This document shows positions 27,890 to 59,154 of a stretch of 64,000 nucleotides of DNA, in pieces. The stretch's first letter is position 1. Each line of letters starts with the position of its first letter. Below the pieces are notes generated by a model, which saw nothing but the letters and a program-made list of their open reading frames with translations, did not search any database and was not told the origin of the DNA. The translations under genes and the position numbers were made by a program. Origin of the DNA: Sporohalobacter salinus (GTDB taxonomy: Bacteria; Bacillota; Halanaerobiia; Halobacteroidales; Acetohalobiaceae); contig NZ_JAFBEG010000012.1 in assembly GCF_016908635.1 (NCBI RefSeq), forward strand, positions 1 to 64,000, read 5' to 3'.

Positions 27890-28024
27890 ATATTAATATA
27901 TATGTCCAGCCTCACAACGTCTCTGCTAACGCTTCCTAATCCATAATTAAAACTGAAGCCTTATGTAGTCCACCTTACCTTCATTTATACTTATAGCTTA
28001 AATGTCGTTAATCTGCTGTTATAT
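27890..28024 (-). repeat. Degenerate attC-like site with a scrap of intron 5' end
   Basis: On the minus strand CATATAAC (R'' box) is followed by AGATTAACGACATTTAAG and, about 80 bases on, by AGACGTTGTGAGG, matching the arms of the intact attC-like sites at lower fidelity. Next to it TGGACATATATAT resembles the intron 5' region, with the first bases deleted. This is a decayed relic of the cassette array found at 38.5-59 kb. Confidence 0.6.
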
Positions 28025-28787
28025 GGTGTGTCTGTTTATCTTTATTATTTTGAGTACTCTCAAGAAGATTATTATTTTGGTTATAATCTAAATTTAAAAA
28101 TAATACAACTGTTACTATAATAAAATAAGAGCTTAAAGCTTTTATAGATGAGTTAAGTATCATGTTTGATATTATATTATTTGGCAAAAACAAACCTAAA
28201 ACAGCAGTTATTTTGCTAAATATCACACTTAATATAGCAACAACTAAAATCACTCCAAATATACTCCACCATCTTCCTTTAACAAGTGACTTACTATATT
28301 TTAAAGCTTCCCTACCTTTCAAGCCTCTTAAAGCTACTATTGGTATAATGAAACAATAATAGATCATCCATATAACGCCTGGTATTATTAATAATAATGA
28401 CCATAAAAGTATAACAGCAAGAGATAAGATACTCGTCCATATAAGACTCCCAAGTCTACTAAAGATTTTACTAAATATCTAAGTTAACTTAATTTGTTTT
28501 TTATCTAACTCTCGTTCAGCAATTACTGAAATCCCCATAGTAATTATAAGTCTTACTAAAAAACCAAATATTACTATAAGTCCCATACCTATTTTAACTT
28601 TTGGATCTTCGATGCTTATTCCTTTTAAAAAATTTAAAATTAGATTACTAATTAAACTAAGAAAAAAATATATCAAAAAAGTAAACTTAAAAATAGTTTT
28701 AAACCTATTTGTATATATTCTCCAACTACTAGATAGAAGCTCCGATAATCCACATTCTCATTTACTTATTTCTTCATAATAATTCAT
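28008..28787 (-). pseudogene. Membrane protein gene with two in-frame stop codons
   Basis: One reading frame of 260 codons runs from an ATG with GGAGG upstream to a TAA inside the attC relic, with TGA at codon 10 and TAG near codon 104 as the only interruptions. The restored product has several membrane helices and includes GREALKYSKSLVKGRWWSIF, seen in proteins with glycerophosphodiester phosphodiesterase-type membrane domains. It looks like an old cassette gene killed by nonsense mutations, because its 3' end runs into the recombination site as cassette genes often do. Confidence 0.65.
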
Positions 28788-38501: not shown

Positions 38502-38697
38502 ATAAAGTCGAAGTCCGGTTCCTTAACTTAGACTGATGTTATGGTCTGCATACTTACTCGATCCCCTATAGATACCTTGCGCAATGGACTTCAATGTTCA
38601 AAATTTCCTATCAACATTGCCATTCAGCTATAGAGTCTTAACTTTTACCCTAATAGGACTTACACCTATTGGATATGTCCAGCTTCGCTGGACATGC
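38502..38697 (-). mobile_element. Group II intron fragment, copy d (5' part and 3' terminus only)
   Basis: The 196 bases keep the intron 5' region, starting GCATGTCCAGCG on the minus strand, and a short 3' end, ACTTCGACTTTAT; the middle, including domain V, is missing. It splits attC8 exactly after GTT, the same site used by the other three copies. It cannot be active by itself. Confidence 0.8.
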
Positions 38698-38824
38698 AAC
38701 GTCCCTGAGCTTCACGACGTCTCATCAATGCTCCTAACTCCAATTAAGTACAAAAACTTTCATATATCATTCCCAGTTTTCATGTATGCTCAATAGTTTA
38801 GATGTCGTTAAGCTCATATTATGT
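38698..38824 (-). repeat. attC8-like recombination site, interrupted by intron copy d
   Basis: R'' reads ACATAAT on the minus strand, so its last base is off consensus. The arms AGCTTAACGACATCT and AGACGTCGTGAAGCT pair, and GACGTT is followed by the intron. The R'' box matches the start of its own cassette, GTT(intron)ATGTGAA at 40756. It ends the MarR/hydrolase cassette. Confidence 0.78.
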
Positions 38825-38924
38825 GAAGTACCCTACTCACCTAAAGTATATCTATTTTTCCATATTACTATTAATAATTCTATTTTATATTTTTTATTGT
38901 TCTTATTCAAATCAATCAAATAAA

Positions 38925-40756: not shown

Positions 40757-41525
40757 ATAGGGTCGAAGTCTGATGCCTTAACTTAGGTTGATATTTGTTT
40801 TCGCCGTTTGTTCACCCTTTCGTCTGTGAGTGCCACAATATCTCATCCTTATCAGGTTCCCAGTCCCCGCCTCATCAAACCGTACGTACGGTTCTCCCGC
40901 ATACGGCTTTCCTATTAATTTCTTCTCAAACTCTATAAGCATAATCCTTCTTAGATTTAAGATATATTCTCTTCCTCAAATCTTGTAAACTTATGGACGC
41001 TTTTATCATTTAGCCCTTACCTCCTGTCTTGTCCGAGAAATCATCAATAGTAGGGCTCCTTTGCTATATGAAGTTATACTTTCTTCATAATCTTAGCTAA
41101 TACGAACCCATCCGTCACCCTCTTCTTTTCCAATTCATTTCCTAGGTCTTAGTTATAGAATTTTCTTTGCTCAAGTGATTTCTCACAGGAAGAAGTAAGG
41201 TTTCTCCAGTTCCAGACATATCCGTGTATACATACCACCGCTAATACTCCGTTGGTGTGTATAAATGTATCAGTCAATTTTCATTTATACATTCTGTCTT
41301 CACTCAGACGTTAAAAGTTCGACCACCAAATTTACCCCTTTCGAAGCTACTGTGCGTTCACTGATGTTATGGTCTGCATACTTGCTCGATATCCTATAGA
41401 TATCTTTGTCAATGGACTTCAATGTTTAAAGTTTCCTATCAACATTGCCATTCAGCTATAGAGTCTTAACTTTTACTCTAATAGAACTTACACCTATTGG
41501 ATATGTCCAGCTTCGCTGGACATGC
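40757..41525 (-). mobile_element. Group II intron, copy c, maturase gene deleted
   Basis: This 769-base copy has the full 5' region, the ribosome site and first codons of the maturase gene (MIKASISLQDLRKRIYLKSKK), then jumps directly to domain V (CCGTATGCGGGAGAACCG, near 40880-40913) and a long 3' tail ending GACTTCGACCCTAT. It splits attC7 after GTT. The ORF-less form could be mobile only with a maturase supplied in trans. Confidence 0.85.
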
Positions 41526-41654
41526 AACGTCCCGAGGCTTCGCGACGTCTGCGGAATATCCACTGCAACCTTTTCCTAAACCTCTGTGTTTCATAAGTCA
41601 GCTCCCGATCTCGATTACGCTCCATTACCAGATGTCGCTAAGCTGCTGTTAGCC
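41526..41654 (-). repeat. attC7-like recombination site, interrupted by intron copy c
   Basis: On the minus strand R'' is GGCTAAC, the L'' arm AGCTTAGCGACATCT pairs with AGACGTCGCGAAGCC, and R' is GTT, then the intron, then ATGT. R'' is complementary to the start of its own cassette, GTT(intron)AGCC at 42874. It ends the Fic cassette. Confidence 0.82.
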
Positions 41655-41670
41655 GATCGTGTCTCTGGTT

Positions 41671-42717
41671 TTATTCTAACCTCTTCCATTTAGCATTTCT
41701 CCCCTTACCTAATAACTCAATTACTCCTTCTTCTTTCAATTTTTTAAATACTCTATTAATTGTAGACTCTGAAACATCAGGACAAGCATTTCTTATATCT
41801 TCTTTTTCAAACTTTCCTAATGTACTTTTAATAGCTTGTTCTACTCTATAACTTTTGTTTCCTTTTTTATTTCTTACTAATCCTACTTTATCTTCAAACT
41901 CTTTATACGCTGCTAATAATGTCCCTAAAAAATAATTTAACCAGATAAAAATATTATGATCTCCTTCATGCCAACCTACAGAAGATTTATTCAAAGCCTC
42001 ATAATAGTTTGATTTACTTTCCGCTATAACTTTTTCTAAACTTATATATCTTCCAACTTTATAATCATATTTATATAATAATAACAATGTTAATAATCTT
42101 GCCATTCTGCCATTTCCATCATTAAAAGGATGAATACTTAGAAAATCTAATACAAAAGCACCTATCAAAATCAAAGATTCAATATTTTCCTCTTTCATTT
42201 CTCTATTTAAACAATTACATAATTCTTCAATAGCTGCTGGAGTTTTGGCTGCAGATAAAGGTTTAAACCTCACATATCTTTCTCCATTAGGTAATATCTC
42301 TTCAATAACGTTATCTTGGTTTTTCCATTTTCCACCTTCAGGAGAAACAAATTTATATAGATCTCTATGGAATTGTAAAATTATATTTGGTTTTATGGGA
42401 ATAGCATCATAAGAAGTGTGGATTGTATTTAACACATCTCTATATCCTGCAATTTCTCCTTCAGAACGATCTTCAGGTACGGTATTATCTTGCATTATTT
42501 CTTTTAAACGTTTATCAGTAATAACTATTCCTTCTATACTATTTGAAGCTTTAGTACTTTGAACAATTGCTACCTCTTTTAATTTTTCTAAAACTTGTGG
42601 AGATTGATCTAAATATAAATTCTGTTTTCCTTTATATTCATTTATTTTTCCAATCAACTTCACAATATCCATTGGAACTTCTTCATTTTTTAACTTTTCA
42701 TTTCTAAATGACATCAT
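41671..42717 (-). CDS. Fic-family AMP-transferase with C-terminal winged helix
   Basis: This Fic protein of about 348 residues would transfer AMP from ATP to a target protein. It has the inhibitory-helix motif SNSIEG near residue 60, as in class II self-inhibited Fic proteins, and the active site HPFNDGNGRMARL near 200. The last 60 residues (FEKEDIRNACPDVSESTINRVFKKLKEEGVIE) form a winged-helix-like tail, outline only, possibly for autoregulation. The ATG at 42717 fits GGAGAGG better than the GTG at 42729. It is the sole gene of its cassette; TATTCATTTA repeats in the leader could be operators. Confidence 0.88.
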   Translation of the reverse strand: MMSFRNEKLKNEEVPMDIVKLIGKINEYKGKQNLYLDQSPQVLEKLKEVAIVQSTKASNSIEGIVITDKRLKEIMQDNTVPEDRSEGEIAGYRDVLNTIHTSYDAIPIKPNIILQFHRDLYKFVSPEGGKWKNQDNVIEEILPNGERYVRFKPLSAAKTPAAIEELCNCLNREMKEENIESLILIGAFVLDFLSIHPFNDGNGRMARLLTLLLLYKYDYKVGRYISLEKVIAESKSNYYEALNKSSVGWHEGDHNIFIWLNYFLGTLLAAYKEFEDKVGLVRNKKGNKSYRVEQAIKSTLGKFEKEDIRNACPDVSESTINRVFKKLKEEGVIELLGKGRNAKWKRLE

Positions 42718-42739
42718 AAATATATTCACCTCTCCATAA

Positions 42740-42874: not shown

Positions 42875-43496
42875 GTAGGGTCGAAGTCTAGTGCCTTAAC
42901 TTAGGTTGATATTTGTTTTCGCCGTTTGTTCACCCTTTCGTCTGTGAGTGCCACAATATCTCATCCTTATCAGGTTCCCAGTCCCCGCCTCATCAAACCG
43001 TACGTACGGTTCTCCCGTATACGGCTTTCCTATTAATTTCTTCTTAACCTCTATAAGCATAATCCTTCTTAGATTTAAGATATATTCTCTTCCTCAAGTC
43101 TTGTAGACTTATGTAGGTCTTAGTTATAGAATTTTCTTTGCTCAAGTGATTTCTCACAGGAAGAAGTAAGGTCTCTCCAGTTCCAGACATATCCGTGTAT
43201 ACATACCACCGCTAATACTCCGTTGGTGTGTATAAATGTATCAGTCAATTTTCATTTATACATTCTGTCTTCACTCAGACGTTAAAAGTTCGACCACCAA
43301 ATTTACCCCTTTCGAAGCTACTGTGCGTTCACTGATGTTATGGTCTGCATACTTGCTCGATATCCTATAGATATCTTTGTCAATGGACTTCAATGTTTAA
43401 AGTTTCCTATCAACATTGCCATTCAGCTATAGAGTCTTAACTTTTACTCTAATAGAACTTACACCTATTGGATATGTCCAGCTTCGCTGGACATGC
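42875..43496 (-). mobile_element. Group II intron, copy b, maturase gene deleted
   Basis: This 622-base copy has the intron 5' region and domain V (near 42998-43031), with the same 3' tail ending GACCCTAC, but has lost the maturase gene and part of the domains before it. It splits attC6 after GTT. It is nearly identical to copies a and c in shared parts, which indicates recent spread. Confidence 0.85.
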
Positions 43497-43625
43497 AACG
43501 TCCCGCAGCTTCGCGACGTCCTCGCTATTCCTCTGTAACCTAATTTAATACAACCTAAGTTTCATAAGTCAGCTCCAGCTCTCATTCATGCACTGTAACT
43601 GGATGTCGCTAAGCTGCTGTTATAT
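43497..43625 (-). repeat. attC6-like recombination site, interrupted by intron copy b
   Basis: R'' is ATATAAC on the minus strand, the arms AGCTTAGCGACATCC and GGACGTCGCGAAGCT pair, and R' is GTT, then the intron, then AGCC. R'' with flank (GTCATATAAC) is complementary to the start of its own cassette (GTTATATGAC at 44585). It ends the small membrane protein cassette. Confidence 0.82.
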
Positions 43626-43969
43626 GACGGATGGCACGCTTTAAGCTCAAATTTATAAATACAAATTATTGATATGTAAAGGAACATGATTAAAATAAAT
43701 TTACTTGTAGCAACTACTTTATCACCAATTATAGCTAATCAAATTCTAAATTTACCATTATTAATATTATTTTAAAATAATTATATAATCTATCTTCAAG
43801 CTTTAATATTCATCATGCCTTGTTATCTTCCATATTTCTTCTAACAAACAAATCTTAAATTAACTAATGACTTAATATCATTATTATTCGCTTAAACAAT
43901 TTTAAAATTTTCTATACATTCATCTATAACATCCCTTCAACCATTTTGTATTTTATCATATAACCTCAA
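43626..43969. other. Non-coding 3' part of a cassette
   Basis: These 344 bases lie between the membrane protein stop and attC6. No gene with adequate signals was seen; a 29-codon hydrophobic frame on the plus strand at 43686-43775 has only a poorly spaced AAAGGA. Confidence 0.4.
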
Positions 43970-44521: not shown

Positions 44522-44578
44522 ACAAATTCCTCCATCCAGTAATTCTTTCAAATAACATCAGCATTTGTGCCATCTGTC

Positions 44579-44715
44579 ATATAACGTCTTAGAAATATTT
44601 CCGATGTCTCAACAAAAAAAATTAAAGTTTTTATTTAATACACTCTTCCTTTTATAAGTTAGCTGAATTTTTATTTGATTAGCTATTAAGATGTCGGAAA
44701 ATATTCTTGTTGTAC
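44579..44715 (-). repeat. attC5-like recombination site
   Basis: R'' is GTACAAC, L'' AGAATATTTTCCGACATCTT pairs with AGACATCGGAAATATTTCT, and R' is GTTATAT. The arm sequence differs from the other sites while the fold is kept. R'' is complementary to the odd core GTTGTAC at the start of its own cassette (46178), which supports a true cassette end. It closes the transposase cassette. Confidence 0.8.
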
Positions 44716-44943
44716 GAAGCGCGAAGCGCTTTTCCGCTCCAGTCCCCGCTATGGAATTTTATGTTTGTTCTTACTATCTTCAGTAATTAAATTTTCATTA
44801 TTAATTACTCCTTCCTGAATATTAACTCCCTTTATTTTCTACTCTTAATCTCTCTTATCCATAATTCAACCTTTTATATGCAGTTTGAACATACTTCTTC
44901 CTAATAACTTTAATAGTTTCTTATTTTGATCATCATAACCTAC

Positions 44944-46113
44944 CTAACTACCTGCAGTTTTCCTCTTTAATTTAGCTTTCACTATTGGAGTTTCTTCTGA
45001 GTCAAATTTTCTTCCTTTAATCAACTCTTTGCCACATACCGGACAGTTTTGTAGATCTTCTCCTCCTTTTTCTTTACAGTACTCCTGCCACTTTATCTCT
45101 TCTGGCTCTTTAACTTTAGCTTGTCCAAGTTCCTTACGACATTTATTTAATGTCTCTCGCTTACAACTAGCATACAATCCGTAATAACGTACTACTTTTA
45201 AATTAGGTTTGGGGACATGAAGTAGAAATCTACGTATAAATTCTTCTGTATCTAATGTCATTACTTTTTTCTTTCCATTCTCTTTGTTATCTTTATAATT
45301 AAATTTAATTTCATTCTCATTATAGTTTATTACCCGATGATTAGATATTGACCCACCTTTAATGTAGTTACCTAAATATTTGATGACGCCCTCACCATAA
45401 GCATACTTTTCGCAAACATATACATTCCACTTTTTTATTCTCAATTTTCTTAACATCTTATGTATCTGACTATAGCTCATTCCTTCTGGTTTCTTTATCT
45501 CACCGTTATAAACTAAGTTATGTAATCTATCTAAGAATTTACCTCTAAAGATTTCTTGTAATACTGTAACTGGTATTAAATAGCCTTTCTTACTTGGTTT
45601 CCACTCTTCGTTATCTGTCATTCCTCCGCCAGTAACTAAACAATGAAGATGAGGATGTAAATTTAACGTTTCTCCCCATGTCTGTAAAGTAGCTATCACT
45701 ACTGGATTAGCTCCCAGAAATTTATCATTTTCTAACATCCCAAACAGAGAATCTTTAGCAGACTTAAATAATAGGCCAGTCATCTTTCTAGAGTTTAACA
45801 TCCACAATTCACTTAATTTATGAGGAAGTGTAAATATTACATGATAATGGTCAGCATCTAAAACTCTTTCCAGCTGCTTATTTATCCATTCTTGCTTTTG
45901 AATACCTGAACATTGCGGACATGATCTGTGCTTACATGAGTTATACCAGATACGGTGATAATGCTCATCAGGACACTTTTGAACATGGCCGCCTAAAGCT
46001 GAAGTCCGGCAATTAATTATACTCCACGCTGCTTTTCGAGCATGCTCAGCTATTAAATTATTCTGCTCATATTCTGGATAATGCTCAGTAAAAATATCTT
46101 GAATTACACTCAT
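44944..46113 (-). CDS. IS91-family transposase
   Basis: The 389-residue HUH-type transposase has an N-terminal zinc-binding region with CKHRSCPQCSG near residue 60, the HUH motif in NLHPHLHCLVTGGG near 160 and a tyrosine region in YLGNYIKGGSISNHRV near 250. This is the IS91 pattern of rolling-circle elements. The ATG at 46113 is chosen because AAGAGGAAG precedes it; the frame opens further upstream to 46203, through the attC site. It lies exactly between two attC-like sites, so it now behaves as a cassette. No IS91 target GTTC/GAAC junction was confirmed. Confidence 0.88.
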   Translation of the reverse strand: MSVIQDIFTEHYPEYEQNNLIAEHARKAAWSIINCRTSALGGHVQKCPDEHYHRIWYNSCKHRSCPQCSGIQKQEWINKQLERVLDADHYHVIFTLPHKLSELWMLNSRKMTGLLFKSAKDSLFGMLENDKFLGANPVVIATLQTWGETLNLHPHLHCLVTGGGMTDNEEWKPSKKGYLIPVTVLQEIFRGKFLDRLHNLVYNGEIKKPEGMSYSQIHKMLRKLRIKKWNVYVCEKYAYGEGVIKYLGNYIKGGSISNHRVINYNENEIKFNYKDNKENGKKKVMTLDTEEFIRRFLLHVPKPNLKVVRYYGLYASCKRETLNKCRKELGQAKVKEPEEIKWQEYCKEKGGEDLQNCPVCGKELIKGRKFDSEETPIVKAKLKRKTAGS

Positions 46114-46171
46114 ATTTGCACTTCCTCTTAAAAGATTATCATACCCAACTTTTGCTACGCGAAGCGTTTCT

Positions 46172-46304
46172 GTACAACGTCCCGCAGCTTCGCGACGTCC
46201 CACTCATGTTTCATGACCTAATTTAATGCAACCTAAATTTCATAAGTCATCCCCAACTGTCATTTTATGCACTACAACTGGATGTCGCTAAGCCTCTGTT
46301 AGGT
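46172..46304 (-). repeat. attC4-like recombination site
   Basis: R'' is ACCTAAC, the arms AGGCTTAGCGACATCC and GGACGTCGCGAAGCT pair, and R' is GTTGTAC. R'' plus flank (TTCACCTAAC) matches the start of its own cassette, GTT(intron)AGGTGAA at 47155. It closes the DUF5673-like cassette. Confidence 0.83.
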
Positions 46305-46338
46305 GAAGTCAGAATGAACATATTACTTTCATAAAAAA

Positions 46339-47155: not shown

Positions 47156-49056
47156 GTAGGGTCGAAGTCTGATGCCTTAACTTAGATTGATGTTTGTTTT
47201 CGCCGTTTGCTCACCCTTTCGTCTGTGAGTGCCACAATATCTCATCCCTATCAGGTTCCCAGTCCCCGCCTCATCAAACCGTACGTACGGTTCTCCCGTA
47301 TACGGCTTTCCTATTAATTTTTTTCTTAAATCTTATAAGTTTAAGCTGGTTTAACTTTCGCTATAGCAAGCTAATTTATAACTATCAAATAAACCTATTT
47401 CATCATATAACTACTCGCTACTCCATCTCTTCCAGCCATATCCCTTTTTACCTCGCTGCTTCATGAGATACCTTCTTACTTTCTTTTCTACATAATCTCT
47501 TATATAAGAAAAGCAATTCTCTGAGTTTCCTATGGAAAAGTAATTTACCCAACCTCTTAATATTGCATTTAATTCTGTTATCATCATCTCAAATATTCCT
47601 GTTGTCCTATGCTTTCGGATTATTTCCTTTATTTTCTGCAATAATGCTGTTCTTTTCTTCATTTGAGGTACTGTCAGAACACCCCATTTTCCACTGAAAG
47701 TCTTTCTTCTTTTCAAAGTAAATCCGAGAAAGCTTATTCTTTCTCCTTTTTCTAGGTTTACTACCTTGGTTTTCTCCTTGTTTACTTTTACCTTTATTTT
47801 ATCTAGTTCTGTATATTTACCTTTACTCTTTGTTACTTCTTTTGCTCTCTCAAGCATTTTATCTACTTCATTTAAATATAGATTAGCAAATAGTGGTGAA
47901 ATTACTCCACCTTGTGGTACACCTTCTTTTCCACTAGCCTTAAGCATCAGCTTAATTAAGTGCATTATTTCTTTATCGACTACTCTTTTAGCAATCTTAG
48001 ATAGCAATATATGGTGCTTTACTGTATCGAAGTAACTCGATAAGTCAAGATCTATCACTTTCCTCTTTCCACTTACTATTGCTTTTTCTATTTTCTTTAC
48101 TGCTTGATGAGCTGTTCGTTTTGGTCGATATCCATAAGAACCTTCTTGAAAATCTGCTTCAAATATTGGCTCTAATATTAACTTTAATGCTCCCTGTACT
48201 ATTCTATCTTTGATGGTTGGTATACCTAATACTCTTACTTTTCCATTTCCTTTAGGTATCTCTTGTTTTCGGTTTTCCTGTGGCTTGTATGTCTTATTTA
48301 CTAGTTCTTCTCTTATCTTTTGAAGATATTTTAATATTCCTATCTCTTCAATATCTTCAGAAGTTATTCCATCTATTCCTGAAGAACCTTTCTTCTTTCT
48401 TGCAATTGTATAAGCTTTTAGTAACGTATCTAACTTACATATATGAACATACCCCCCCAAAATTTATGGGATTCTTCCTTCTTAGATTTAAGATATATTC
48501 TCTTCCTCAAGTCTTGTAAACTTATGGACGCTTTTATCATTTCGCCCTTACCTCCTATCTTGTCCGAGAAATCATCAATAGTAGGGCTCCTTTGCTATAT
48601 GAAGTTATACTCTCTTCATAATCTTCGCTAATACGAACCCATCCGTCACCCTCTTCTTTTCCAATTCATTTCCTAGGTCTTAGTTATAGAATTTTCTTTG
48701 CTCAAGTGATTTCTCACAGAAAGAAGTAAGGTTTCTCCAGTTCCAGACATATCCGTGTATACATACCACCGCTAATACTCCGTTGGTGTGTATAAATGTA
48801 TCAGTCAATTTTCATTTATACATTCTGTCTTCACTCAGACGTTAAAAGTTCGACCACCAAATTTACCCCTTTCGAAGCTACTGTGCGTTCACTGATGTTA
48901 TGGTCTGCATACTTGCTCGATATCCTATAGATATCTTTGTCAATGGACTTCAATGTTCAAAGTTTCCTATCAACATTGCCATTCAGCTATAGAGTTTTAA
49001 CTTTTACTCTAATAGGACTTACACCCATTGGATATGTCCAGCTTCGCTGGACATGC
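47156..49056 (-). mobile_element. Group II intron, copy a, with degenerate maturase gene
   Basis: This 1,901-base copy is inserted after GTT of attC3. It starts GCATGTCCAGCGAAGC on the minus strand and ends CGACCCTAC. Domain V (AGCCGTATACGGGAGAACCG, continuing into ACGTACGG) lies near 47278-47312, with about 120 bases of 3' sequence behind it. The 5' exon is the attC hairpin followed by GTT. The maturase gene inside is a pseudogene, so this copy also needs help in trans. Intron class is not determined; insertion into attC resembles published group IIC-attC introns. Confidence 0.88.
47344..48540 (-). pseudogene. ltrA: Group II intron reverse transcriptase/maturase, inactivated
   Basis: The gene starts at ATG 48540 after GGAGG (MIKASISLQDLRKRIYL). 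A run of seven G near 48455 shifts the frame in the middle of HKFWG/GYVHICK. An open part at 47411-48460 has RT motifs (KVRVLGIPTIKDRIVQGALK, FEADFQEGSYGYRPKRTAHQ, VPQGGVISPL), but about 35 residues with the catalytic YADD box are missing between KGKYT and ELDKIKV. A TAG then cuts off WSSE from LYDEIGLFDSYKLA at the end. Three independent lesions mean no active enzyme. Confidence 0.9.
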
Positions 49057-49188
49057 AACGTCCGTCCCGCAGCTTCGCGACGTCCCATCAATGCTCTATA
49101 GCCTTATTTAATGCAACCTGAGTTTCATAAGTCAGCTTTAGCTCCCATTTTTGCACTGCAACTGGATGTCGCTAAGCTGCTGTTAGGT
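49057..49188 (-). repeat. attC3-like recombination site, interrupted by intron copy a
   Basis: R'' is ACCTAAC, the arms AGCTTAGCGACATCC and GGACGTCGCGAAGCT pair, and R' is GTT, then the intron, then AGGT. A 4-base GGAC duplication lies next to R'. R'' with flank (GTCACCTAAC) matches the start of its own cassette (GTTAGGTGAC at 52726). It ends the two-gene membrane system cassette, whose second gene stops 10 bases before R''. Confidence 0.84.
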
Positions 49189-49197
49189 GACGTTGGT

Positions 49198-52680: not shown

Positions 52681-52719
52681 ATTTTTTAACTCCTAACTCT
52701 TAGTTTTTGAACCAATGTC

Positions 52720-52851
52720 ACCTAACGTCCCTGGGCTTCGCGACGTCCCATCAATGCTCTATAACCTAATCTAATGCAATCTGAATTTCATAAGTCATTC
52801 CCAACCCTCATTTATGCACTATAACTGGATGTCGCTAAGCCCATGTTAGGC
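52720..52851 (-). repeat. attC2-like recombination site
   Basis: R'' is GCCTAAC, L'' GGGCTTAGCGACATCC pairs with L' GGACGTCGCGAAGCCC, and R' is GTTAGGT. The spacers next to R'' and R' differ in length, as in known attC sites. R'' with flank (GTCGCCTAAC) matches the start of its own cassette (GTTAGGCGAC at 57014). It ends the restriction-modification cassette. Confidence 0.86.
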
Positions 52852-52954
52852 GACGTACGTGTTCAAAAAAATTAAATCTCAATTTGTTTTAATAAAAAAA
52901 TCTCCCAATGAATAATAAACCAGCAATTAATTCATGGGAGAATTTTATCATTTA

Positions 52955-54352
52955 TTAAATCTCTCTCTTATTAATATAATTTATTATTTCATTTTCTCGG
53001 TATTTTTCTAATTTCTTAATCTTCTTTTTGCAAATATTAACTAATTTAATAGCCTGATCATACTTTGTAGCAATTTCCAGTTGAATATCTTCACTTGGAA
53101 TAGGAATATCTATTTTATTAAAGATATCTAATGTTATACCACCTTGTGCACCGCCGCTTATATATCTTTTTATTTGTTCCTGTCCAAAATCACTATTTAA
53201 TATTGCAAAAATATATTTAGCATTATATTCTGAGAGAATTGATATTCTATATAGATGCTCATTAGTAGCAGCTAAATCATATTTGAAATTTTCATTCACT
53301 ATAGCAACTTTACCTGTTGTTGCTCCATCTTTACATATTAGTATATCCATTTCATTTATTTTTATATTTGGATTATCTTTATAAAATCTTTTGGTAACAT
53401 ACTTCATATCATTGTAAACTATCTCACCATTTAAATTTATATGCTCTCCTCCTAAACTAGGAACACCTTCTTTTATATATTTAACCCCACCTTTTGGTCG
53501 CTTACCACTAGATATATTCCATACAACTTCTTTTAGTTTTTTGATATCCATTTCACTATTTTTTACTTCATAATCATAGTTTTTTAAATGGAATGAAACA
53601 TCAAATCTTTCTTTTAATTTATCCAATTCAATAGAATTTGTTTTCTTTATCTCTACAATAGACTGTTTTTTAATACTAACTTTCTCATATAAAATATTCT
53701 CAAATATTTTATATATTAACTTTATTCTGTTTTTATACTTTTTTATCTTATTAGTTATTCTTTTGTAAAAATCAATTATTTCTTGTTGAAGCTCTTTTTT
53801 AGGAACAATAACTTTTATATTTTTTATATCTTCTAAATGTAAATCTGGAACACCTATTCCTTTAATAAATTTATCTATTTGAATTTTAGTAAAAAAAGAA
53901 TTTAAATAGATTGCTAAATATTCAGGAATACATTTATCCTTAAAAACATCTTTTAATACTGCAACACTAACATAAATACTAAAATGATCATCTATATCTG
54001 GTACTACTGTAGAAACTCCTATAGTCCCTACCTTAGTAAGTAAAACATCTTCAGGTTTTGGATTAGACCCACTTAACTTCTCATATAAATACTTTGATAC
54101 ATACTTTACATCGCCAAATTCTATCTCCGTTGGCTTTATATCCTTAGAAGAAATAAATGGAACACCTTCTTCATGATAGATAGGAGTTTGATGAGACCCA
54201 TCTCTTACATCATAAACTAATTCACTTAAGGTATATACATTATGGTATTTGGAAGGATTTTTAAATCTTTTTTTTACAATGTCTTCAGCAATTATAGTTT
54301 CTACTGAAAGACGGTTGCATAAATTTTTTGCATTATTTGAAAAACACTTCAT
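52955..54352 (-). CDS. hsdS: Type I-like restriction specificity subunit (HsdS)
   Basis: The 465 residues hold two target recognition domains, about 30-190 (LSELVYDVRDGSHQTP) and 265-430 (LKEVVWNISSGKRPKGG), separated and followed by helical spacers, the standard HsdS plan. It reads DNA sequence for the methylase-nuclease subunit encoded just before it (3 bases between stop and start). It is second in the cassette; the pair resembles BcgI-type systems, which have no separate HsdR. Confidence 0.9.
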   Translation of the reverse strand: MKCFSNNAKNLCNRLSVETIIAEDIVKKRFKNPSKYHNVYTLSELVYDVRDGSHQTPIYHEEGVPFISSKDIKPTEIEFGDVKYVSKYLYEKLSGSNPKPEDVLLTKVGTIGVSTVVPDIDDHFSIYVSVAVLKDVFKDKCIPEYLAIYLNSFFTKIQIDKFIKGIGVPDLHLEDIKNIKVIVPKKELQQEIIDFYKRITNKIKKYKNRIKLIYKIFENILYEKVSIKKQSIVEIKKTNSIELDKLKERFDVSFHLKNYDYEVKNSEMDIKKLKEVVWNISSGKRPKGGVKYIKEGVPSLGGEHINLNGEIVYNDMKYVTKRFYKDNPNIKINEMDILICKDGATTGKVAIVNENFKYDLAATNEHLYRISILSEYNAKYIFAILNSDFGQEQIKRYISGGAQGGITLDIFNKIDIPIPSEDIQLEIATKYDQAIKLVNICKKKIKKLEKYRENEIINYINKREI

Positions 54353-54355
54353 AAT

Positions 54356-56926
54356 TTAAACCCCTTTATAAGTATGTTTACTTTTAATAAATTTATTCCA
54401 TTGTCCTAAAATAGTACCTTCTGCTTCTAAATCAGCTAATTTTGAATTAGATTTTTTCTTAAATAATTCATTTTTAGTCTTTTTTCCAGTAGCATCATAA
54501 CCAATATGCTCAGCTTCAGCCATAAAAACAGGTCTGTTCCATTTTTTCAGAACTTCCTTATGAGCTTCATACTCAACATCCATTTTAGTAATTTCATCTT
54601 TTTCAATTTCTAATTCTCTAATTTCTAATTGATAGTCTTCTAAAATATCATATCCTAGTCGTTTTAAAAAGTTAATTATCGTTTTAGTATAACTATTAAA
54701 TTTCTTCTCAGCAAGTTCTCTTTGAGAATATTTTTTCCTACTACTTCCTCTATTCTTCCAAGTTCTTAATCCTTTCCTAACAAAGCGATTAGAAAAATCA
54801 TTATATAAATTAACTAAACTCTCATACAATACAATAACTTCTTGTTCTAAATCATTATCTAAATAATCTATATCTACTTTTTTACCTATTTTATCATATA
54901 AACTAATAATCTTATTTTTAATTTCACTCAAATCTTCAAATTCATCATCTATACTCTTGTTAACTACTTTCTCTTTTTCTCCTCCAATCCCTAATATTTC
55001 TCCTTCTTCTTCTAATATTTCAATTTCTCCTATTTCTTGATATAAATCTTCAATTTTATCAAATATATTTTGTAAAAATGACTCTAATCCATTATTATCA
55101 ATAAATATCTGTAATTCTTCTGTTAAATTATCTATTAAACTTATTTTTTCTTTTTCCTTATTCAATATATAACGTTCTTTATCTTTTTTCCAACGATTAA
55201 ATTCATCATTTGTAAATTTCTTTATTATTAATATAGAAGTCTTTGAACCAGATCCTGTTTTCTTAAAAGCAAAATCAGGCAGAGAAATAATACCTAAAAT
55301 GTGGGCTCTTTCTTGAATATATTTTCTTACATACCAAAATGAAGAATTGTTTAATATTCCATCAGGTACTATAATAGCCATATGTCCTGGCTGAGAATTA
55401 TCTTTTCCATCATGTTTAGGTTTTAAAAGATCAATATTTCGTTCTAAAAATAAAACATCAGAAGCTTGTTTAGTTTTATCCATTCCTCCACCTAAATCAA
55501 AATCTTTCACATAAGGCTGATCTGTTTCATCATCATCTGCTTTACTACCAAAAGGAGGATTAGATAAAACAATGTCAAATGTACCTTTTTTTATTCCTTC
55601 CACATCATAAGATTCAAAATCTTGTAAACCATCTCCTATCTCAATATTAGTATGACCATCATCAAATATAATCATATCCATCATTGCAACACGAGCAATT
55701 TTTTCGTTTTTTTCTATCCCAAATACTTTGTCATTAAAATTTCTTTCTCTTCTATATCTATGATTTTGATTACTAACATTTAATCTTAACTTTTCTCTTA
55801 CATAAATCAAACTATGTAATAAAAAACCTGCTGAACCACAACTTGGATCTATAATTTTTAAATTTTCAACATTATTATCATCATATAATGACATAATTAA
55901 ATTTACAATAAATACAACCAGATTTCTATCAGTAAAATATTGTCCAAGCTTTTGCTTGAATACCGTGTCTAAAAATTGTTCAAATGCCCTTCCCTTAGCA
56001 TCTGGATCAGTATCAACTAAATTTATATGTTGCATCAAAAGAACAATCTTATATATTTTACTATCATCAGCTTTTAAATCTTCCGTAAAAACACTAGGTT
56101 TCTCATTCTTTATTTTTTTATATTTATTTCTTATTCGCTTAGCTACTTTCTTTCTATTATTAATTTCATGATTCCCTATTTGAAAATCATATGCTTCTTT
56201 ATCATTAGTTCCTAATTCATCTTGAGTCTTTATAAAAATTATCTTACTCATCTCATCAAAAGCCTCTGCTGGATCTTTTGCACCATGATCCCATAAAATT
56301 TGATGACATTTTCTAAAAAGTTTTAACAATTTACTTTGAGTTATCGTTTGTAATTCTCTTTCAGAAGTTGCTTTAATATATTTATATCTTTTAGGCTTCC
56401 CATATTCTTCTGGTAAATCAGTAACAATATTTTTCTTTCTCTCTTTTGCTCCCCACTTTTCTTTTTTCTCATCATCTTTATATAAAGAAAACACTTTTCG
56501 CTTTTCAGTTTGATTATTATCAACAATATAATATTCAGCTGCTAAGTTTAATGCATATACATATTGGTCATTTTTAGCTTTTCTCATTTCTTTTTTAGGA
56601 GCATTTTCTTCTTTAGTCTCAATAACAGCATATACATTATCAGAATTTTTATGTCTTATAACTATATCAGCTCTTTCTTTAGTAACTTTTGGTACAGTCT
56701 CTTCTATTGTAATATCTGATGGATCATATTTATATTGATATAATAATTCAGAATAAACTAAAGCCCTTACATGTTCTTCAGGATTACTAGGACCATAATT
56801 TTGCTCATTCCTTCCTTTAGCATTTACATATTTAATTTTTCCACCATTAATAATAATCTCTCTATTGTCTCTAGCTTTTTGAAAATACTCATTTCTTTTA
56901 TCAACTCTTGATTTCATATAAATCAC
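54356..56926 (-). CDS. Restriction-modification protein: nuclease-like N-terminus fused to N6-adenine methyltransferase
   Basis: Residues about 30-150 resemble the HsdR N-terminal nuclease domain: ERADIVIRH and YAVIETKEEN give the D...ExK pattern. Residues about 300-600 are an HsdM-type methyltransferase with motif I IDPSCGSAGFLL and motif IV LSNPPFGSKAD. A long coiled-coil C-terminus follows. A cut-and-methylate subunit with a separate HsdS is the BcgI (type IIB) or type IIG arrangement. There is no HsdR ATPase gene nearby. It would protect against phage or plasmid DNA. It is first in cassette 2. Confidence 0.85.
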   Translation of the reverse strand: MIYMKSRVDKRNEYFQKARDNREIIINGGKIKYVNAKGRNEQNYGPSNPEEHVRALVYSELLYQYKYDPSDITIEETVPKVTKERADIVIRHKNSDNVYAVIETKEENAPKKEMRKAKNDQYVYALNLAAEYYIVDNNQTEKRKVFSLYKDDEKKEKWGAKERKKNIVTDLPEEYGKPKRYKYIKATSERELQTITQSKLLKLFRKCHQILWDHGAKDPAEAFDEMSKIIFIKTQDELGTNDKEAYDFQIGNHEINNRKKVAKRIRNKYKKIKNEKPSVFTEDLKADDSKIYKIVLLMQHINLVDTDPDAKGRAFEQFLDTVFKQKLGQYFTDRNLVVFIVNLIMSLYDDNNVENLKIIDPSCGSAGFLLHSLIYVREKLRLNVSNQNHRYRRERNFNDKVFGIEKNEKIARVAMMDMIIFDDGHTNIEIGDGLQDFESYDVEGIKKGTFDIVLSNPPFGSKADDDETDQPYVKDFDLGGGMDKTKQASDVLFLERNIDLLKPKHDGKDNSQPGHMAIIVPDGILNNSSFWYVRKYIQERAHILGIISLPDFAFKKTGSGSKTSILIIKKFTNDEFNRWKKDKERYILNKEKEKISLIDNLTEELQIFIDNNGLESFLQNIFDKIEDLYQEIGEIEILEEEGEILGIGGEKEKVVNKSIDDEFEDLSEIKNKIISLYDKIGKKVDIDYLDNDLEQEVIVLYESLVNLYNDFSNRFVRKGLRTWKNRGSSRKKYSQRELAEKKFNSYTKTIINFLKRLGYDILEDYQLEIRELEIEKDEITKMDVEYEAHKEVLKKWNRPVFMAEAEHIGYDATGKKTKNELFKKKSNSKLADLEAEGTILGQWNKFIKSKHTYKGV

Positions 56927-57007
56927 TCCTTACTTTTAAGATTATATTATACATTGTCTTATTTAGTCAAATATATAACTATCAATTTAAAACAAAATTA
57001 GTATGTC

Positions 57008-57138
57008 GCCTAACGTCCCTAGGGTTCGCGACGTCTAGTTCAACCCTACTATAACTTGTCCATATTCTAAAGATTACATATCTAATCTTTAATTTCACCT
57101 ATCCTCCTAGTCTAGATGTCGCTAACCCTATGTTAGGT
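57008..57138 (-). repeat. attC1-like recombination site
   Basis: R'' is ACCTAAC, L'' AGGGTTAGCGACATCTAG pairs with L' CTAGACGTCGCGAACCCT, and R' is GTTAGGC. The pairing keeps only an A/C mismatch and one A/G difference, and the spacers are 2 and 6 bases. R'' with flank (TTCACCTAAC) matches the start of its own cassette at the candidate attI (GTTAGGTGAA at 59033). It closes the first cassette. Confidence 0.87.
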
Positions 57139-57154
57139 GAAGTATGAATGGACA

Positions 57155-59026: not shown

Positions 59027-59154
59027 ACCTAACTTGATTCTTCATGACACTATATTCATATGTAGTGTCGCAAATACTCTATATTTAGATATATTACGAA
59101 ATAGTGTCGCAAACACTCACTATATCTTAGTATTTATGTCTGTCGTAAATACTC
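59027..59154 (-). other. Candidate attI recombination site
   Basis: Between the recombinase stop and the first cassette lie three direct repeats of about 17 bases, at 59063-59079, 59102-59118 and 59138-59154 (plus strand TAGTGTCGCAAATACTC and variants), spaced 36-39 bases. A core GTTAGGT follows on the minus strand at 59033-59027, exactly where the first cassette begins. GACACTA/TAGTGTC also form an inverted repeat around 59046-59069. Integron attI sites likewise pair direct recombinase-binding repeats with a core. Binding is inferred. Confidence 0.6.

Follow-up and report, generated by a model that had tools for sequence, protein, structure and literature searches.

Does the DNA between a tyrosine recombinase gene and an array of unrelated genes in Sporohalobacter salinus constitute the site at which an integron takes up its cassettes? 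At positions 59027-59154 of the 64,000-nt stretch analysed here (the window), an attI site composed of three 17-bp direct repeats and a GTTAGGT core had been predicted from the letters of the sequence, lying beside a recombinase gene that reads toward the cassettes. In canonical attC sites the folded strand displays extrahelical bases, one of which is contacted by the I2 helix of the integrase (PMC3053210), and Escudero et al. ascribed single-strand attC recombination to the acquisition of I2, a proposal for which direct proof is lacking because deletion of I2 kills IntI1 (PMC7790495). The profile of the additional domain that holds this helix has also been used for searching (PMC8352920), and wherever searches demand this domain, recombinases of a family devoid of I2 would be overlooked. 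For the Firmicutes, IntegronFinder 2.0 yielded one complete integron (Limnochorda pilosa) and a few CALINs (PMC9024848), and our search for integrons in Halanaerobium, Halanaerobi- and Acetohalobium returned nothing relevant in open-access full texts, subscription papers being outside its scope.

In this work, we analysed the candidate site, its recombinase and its array, and compared them with those of related genomes. Taken together, the evidence makes it very probable that a halanaerobial bacterium here carries a sedentary, chromosomal integron-like platform with 59027-59154 as its attI site. This platform would act like an integron, although its recombinase lacks a domain that defines IntI, and it apparently belongs to a large and unreported integron variant of the Bacillota which is also found in Flavobacterium.

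Organization of the candidate site

The repeat region is intergenic and AT-rich, and its repeats lie between the recombinase gene and the core (Table 1). The three 17-mers start exactly where the original prediction had placed them, with spacings of 39 and 36 nt, and the GTTAGGT core is present next to them; the truly shared part comprises 13 nt plus partial flanks. On the plus strand, the 13-mers read GTCGCAAATACTC (59067), GTCGCAAACACTC (59106) and GTCGTAAATACTC (59142). Each repeat can also be read as one arm of a weak inverted pair, as in AGTATTTA...TAAATACT at 59153-59129, where the repeat at 59138-59154 and TAAATACT (59136-59129) form such a pair.

Table 1. Coordinates of the attI site, the recombinase gene and the cassette array in the window. 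R1, attC covariance model trained on 13 sites, two of them from the window; G001, complete genome from the same genus.
Feature	Position	Strand	Remarks
attI core GTTAGGT (R box)	59027-59033	-	Seen in the sequence; identity with G001 collapses directly 3'
Degenerate inverted L box GTCATGAA of the simple site	59041-59048	-	15 nt ahead of the core G
Direct repeat	59063-59079; 13-nt part GAGTATTTGCGAC at 59067-59079	-	Conserved in G001
Direct repeat	59102-59118; 13-nt part GAGTGTTTGCGAC at 59106-59118	-	Conserved in G001
Direct repeat	59138-59154; 13-nt part GAGTATTTACGAC at 59142-59154	-	Conserved in G001
Tyrosine recombinase, about 364 aa	59179-60273	-	Longest ORF from 60378
First-cassette gene, 609 aa	57155-58984	-	No family match
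attC, first cassette (R' CACCTAAC ... R'' GTTAGGCG)	57007-57139	-	R1 129 bits, in model-building set
attC, second cassette (type I methylase and specificity subunit)	52719-52852	-	R1 132 bits, in model-building set
attC	49059-49189	-	R1 97.5 bits, outside model-building set
attC	46171-46305	-	R1 97.5 bits
attC	43492-43626	-	R1 115.9 bits
attC	41521-41655	-	R1 80.6 bits
attC	38693-38825	-	R1 102.3 bits
attC, most decayed	27895-28025	-	R1 49.2 bits

When no more than one mismatch to a reference was tolerated, three copies were found in none of 2000 shuffles of such a stretch, and in one of the 638 stretches tiled over the whole window, a tiling that includes the region of the site. Elsewhere in the 64-kb window, GTCGYAAAYACTC has no exact match, and two distant matches carry 2 mismatches each. 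A looser test, allowing 2 mismatches in 13, was not significant (16 of 2000 shuffles, 8 of 638 stretches), and the case for the repeats therefore rests on the exact copies and, above all, on their conservation. GTTAGGT by itself is not rare in the window, with 7 occurrences found and 5.8 expected. Since this heptamer is common and the looser test is weak, we regard the repeats and the core as real features whose meaning comes only from comparison.

Conservation of the site and position of the cassette junction

The locus, part of a 2.68-Mb draft genome, was compared with G001. Identity between both genomes reaches 82% over the 3' end of the recombinase gene and 79% over the repeat region, and past the core drops to 45%, as expected of unrelated AT-rich DNA; the drop comes directly after GTTA(G/T)G(T/C)GAAAT. 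All three repeats are recognisable in G001, where the recombinase is reduced to its last 93 residues and the site is nonetheless kept. The L box, degenerate in the window, is intact in G001 (GTCGTAAA, 15 nt ahead of the core), and in relatives it reads GTCGTAAA or TTCGCAAA.

Relatives of the recombinase occur across the whole class and beyond it in the phylum, many of them in draft or metagenome assemblies. In 35 loci, a GTTA core lies past the recombinase stop codon, and an inverted box, [GTA]TCGNNA, stands at -14 to -16 from the core in 18 of these (mean 0.46 and maximum 4 in 1000 shuffles); the 17 loci that fail this strict L-box pattern are mostly from divergent Clostridia. Further boxes recur near -55 and -69 from the core. 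Rather than exactly three direct repeats, relatives usually carry pairs of inverted boxes spaced by about 40 nt, with varying number and layout. As the patterns for box and core were drawn up post hoc, after inspection of the data, the weight of this comparison lies on the fixed spacing and not on the motif search.

Within one genus, eight genomes average 0.70 identity ahead of the core and 0.50 past it, and in two Flavobacterium species the attI-like region is shared as far as the core, with divergence beyond. Two genomes of the Halanaerobiia (G032 and G045) have near-identical attI sites followed by different first cassettes, and this comparison, which is of the kind originally suggested for the interval, locates the junction at the core. 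Homologous recombinases are accompanied by similar repeats or boxes, and at other loci the first-cassette junction also falls on the corresponding GTTA core; both findings support the reading of the site as attI. The crossover would fall at G^TT within the core, that is, at the first-cassette junction. In a further genome, G004 (contig L071, 3695-3740), GTTATATGACA occurs twice, 25 nt apart, past the attI boxes, possibly representing a core duplication or a very small, empty cassette.

A recombinase of the IntI/Xer group devoid of the additional domain

The adjacent recombinase is a member of the IntI/Xer group, with an N-terminal EEHEEH domain, a SAM-like domain and a Phage_integrase catalytic domain (Pfam PF00589, PF13495). 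It passes the cut-off of NF040815 (XerA/integron integrase), and its match to TIGR02249 (integron integrase) is split into residues 1-180 and 236-314 and remains under the cut-off. The additional domain of IntI (I2 helix) is absent from the window protein and from every relative aligned, and present in five of five IntI controls; compared with IntI4 of PDB 2a3v, a segment of 53 residues (188-240, I2 included) has only about 15 counterparts. Because this domain is absent, the recombinase should not be filed as IntI. An AlphaFold2 model (mean pLDDT 84, pTM 0.52) nevertheless finds its best PDB match in the integron integrase 2a3v. In the phylogenetic tree, the five I2-bearing controls, a small sample of canonical IntI diversity, form one group (100/99); as its root is not fixed, the tree does not distinguish loss of I2 from its primary absence.

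The N-terminal domain, of about 80 residues and predicted as EEHEEH, has a weak similarity to known folds, its best VIA-align matches being the N-terminal domain of T4 UvsW (Z 7.3) and XPB (Z 5.0). When this domain was used by itself as a Foldseek query, no match reached E<=0.001, matches to HARP were seen only in relatives of the recombinase and were weak (E 0.0099 and 0.093, below the cut-off), and no link between HARP and integrases was found in open-access full texts. A role of this domain in structure-specific DNA binding is plausible.

The attC array and its relation to the site

With R1 at E<=0.001, 10 sites were found in the whole 2.68-Mb genome, 8 of them in the array of the window; a weak ninth match in the window (44578-44716) is very AT-rich and may be due to chance. 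A generic attC filter was dropped, as it missed true sites. The array displays the features that define integron attC sites, namely RYYYAAC...GTTRRRY, R and L boxes, a folding bottom strand and a single orientation. In the predicted folds of 75 sites, L' and L'' pair mostly without a one-base bulge, which did not improve 63 of them; the asymmetry of the hairpin appears to reside mostly in a one-sided spacer bulge of 3-4 nt. Outside the array, two attC were observed in the same genome (C6:98504-98630 and 73574-73698, the second one weak).

One box is common to both types of site, being found in L'' (GTCGCGAA) and L' (TTAGCGAC) of attC and in the attI repeat (TTTGCGAC); as the arms of attC carry the box of attI, both sites and the enzyme are tied together. 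In 24 loci, all 81 attC matches are on the strand of the recombinase and 80 are on its 3' side. Four attC matches also follow the recombinase in a Flavobacterium (L020). The recombinase does read toward the cassettes, as originally noted, yet this orientation, then held to be rare, is the rule in this recombinase family. In an Atribacterota contig (L002, 2712-6000), attC-like sites lie 5' of the recombinase as well, perhaps reflecting two platforms in tandem.

An explanation that we consider improbable, although it survives best among the alternatives, is that the array consists of relic attC sites (CALIN) of a canonical IntI, with an unrelated Xer-like neighbour whose dif-like site is formed by the repeats. 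The recombinase would suit such a scenario in lacking I2 and in passing the cut-off of NF040815 and not that of TIGR02249, as would the boxes of some relatives, which are near-palindromic at dif length (e.g., GGTATTAACGACATATGTCGTTAATACC in G005), but no canonical IntI over the TIGR02249 cut-off is found in any of the 59 genomes of the class. Across these genomes, moreover, recombinase and attC co-occur (23/27 versus 7/32, Fisher p ~1e-6) with the strand and side described above, first cassettes begin exactly at the core beside the recombinase, and attI and attC have a box in common. Chromosome resolution of the Xer/dif type was likewise disfavoured, given the attC array on the 3' side and the other Xer-like recombinases encoded elsewhere in the genome.

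It is still less credible that the repeats are operators or promoter elements for the recombinase or the first cassette instead of recombinase-binding sites. The positions of the boxes are fixed to the core and not to the start codon in genera with different first genes, and the same box is found inside attC, even if intergenic, AT-rich DNA with repeats every ~36-39 nt upstream of the first-cassette gene is where such elements could be expected. A scan for the cassette promoter Pc returned 9 promoter-like sites against 9.0 expected, and a LexA scan was also at chance level, with no LexA-type box close to the repeats. That an ordinary tyrosine recombinase uses the site for attachment of a prophage or transposon, as a repeat-bearing site adjoining such a gene might suggest, is barely conceivable in view of the arrays of attC-like hairpins with unrelated genes that follow, up to dozens per genome, and of 2a3v as the best solved-structure match of the enzyme.

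On the preferred reading of 59027-59154 as attI, the recombinase would bind the double-stranded boxes (TTTRCGAC and their inverted partners) and the simple site formed by the L box and GTTAGGT. Exchange of a single strand at G^TT with attC, folded from its bottom strand, would bring in new cassettes directly at the core, beside the recombinase gene. The upstream repeats may act as extra binding arms, in the manner of DR1 and DR2 of attI1. A point against this reading is that the recombinase is devoid of the domain on which canonical IntI depend for attC.

Comparison with known integrons and significance

The site resembles attI1 of IntI1 in its simple site with L and R boxes, its GTTRRRY core and the attC cassettes entering at the core, and its repeats are the probable equivalents of the recombinase-binding direct repeats DR1 and DR2, which favour attI1 x attC recombination (PMC8946536). 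It differs in its boxes (TTTRCGAC-type, ~40-nt spacing), in the 3-4-nt one-sided bulge of the attC hairpins, and in a recombinase without the additional domain but with an extra N-terminal one, whose gene points toward the cassettes. The chromosomal integron of Treponema denticola shares the transcription of intI toward attI and the cassettes, but Treponema IntI possess the additional domain, absent here, and the hosts of the present platform are Bacillota. In T. brennaborense, a relative of T. denticola, a GTTAGGT segment adjoins intI (PMC3607928). The superintegron of Vibrio cholerae (VchIntIA, 2a3v) provides the best structural and sequence match and also contains long attC arrays, although residues 188-240 of its integrase, with I2, are largely without counterpart in our protein. 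Archaeal XerA and Xer/dif systems have in common with the platform a domain make-up without I2, an NF040815 score over the cut-off and dif-like inverted boxes such as those of attI, and they differ from it by the cassette array with attC hairpins and the extra N-terminal domain found here. In archaeal integrons, attI is also located directly downstream of intI and conserved across hosts, whereas archaeal IntI retain the additional domain (PMC9668308).

This family may predate I2, may have lost it or may have had a separate origin. We tentatively propose, as a possibility somewhat short of an even chance, a large lineage of Bacillota integrons (partly of Bacteroidota and Atribacterota) whose integrase never had I2, and which would recognise hairpins through the structure-specific DNA-binding N-terminal domain and the 3-4-nt bulge instead of extrahelical bases, representing either an ancestral stage that preceded I2 or integrons that arose independently. 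A natural family with attI and attC and without I2 makes the question of the I2 requirement directly testable, and also adds natural relatives with a conserved attI for the study of accessory-repeat function.

Cassette cargo and neighbouring elements

The cassettes are unusually large and bear defence-type genes, among them a type I methylase with its specificity subunit (MADS2/MAD5-like; cassette 52955-56926) and a Fic protein (SoFic; cassette 41671-42729). Matches to group II intron D1-D4 (RF02003) are located on the minus strand at 38534-38671, 41362-41499, 43333-43470 and 48893-49030, each just beyond the R'' end of an attC, and three of these four attC ends read ...GGGACGTTGCATG, which suggests group IIC introns targeting attC sites; a maturase gene is found at 47411-48460. 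An IS91-type Y2 transposase gene (44944-46203) adjoins the attC at 46171-46305, whose R'' is changed to GTTGTACA.
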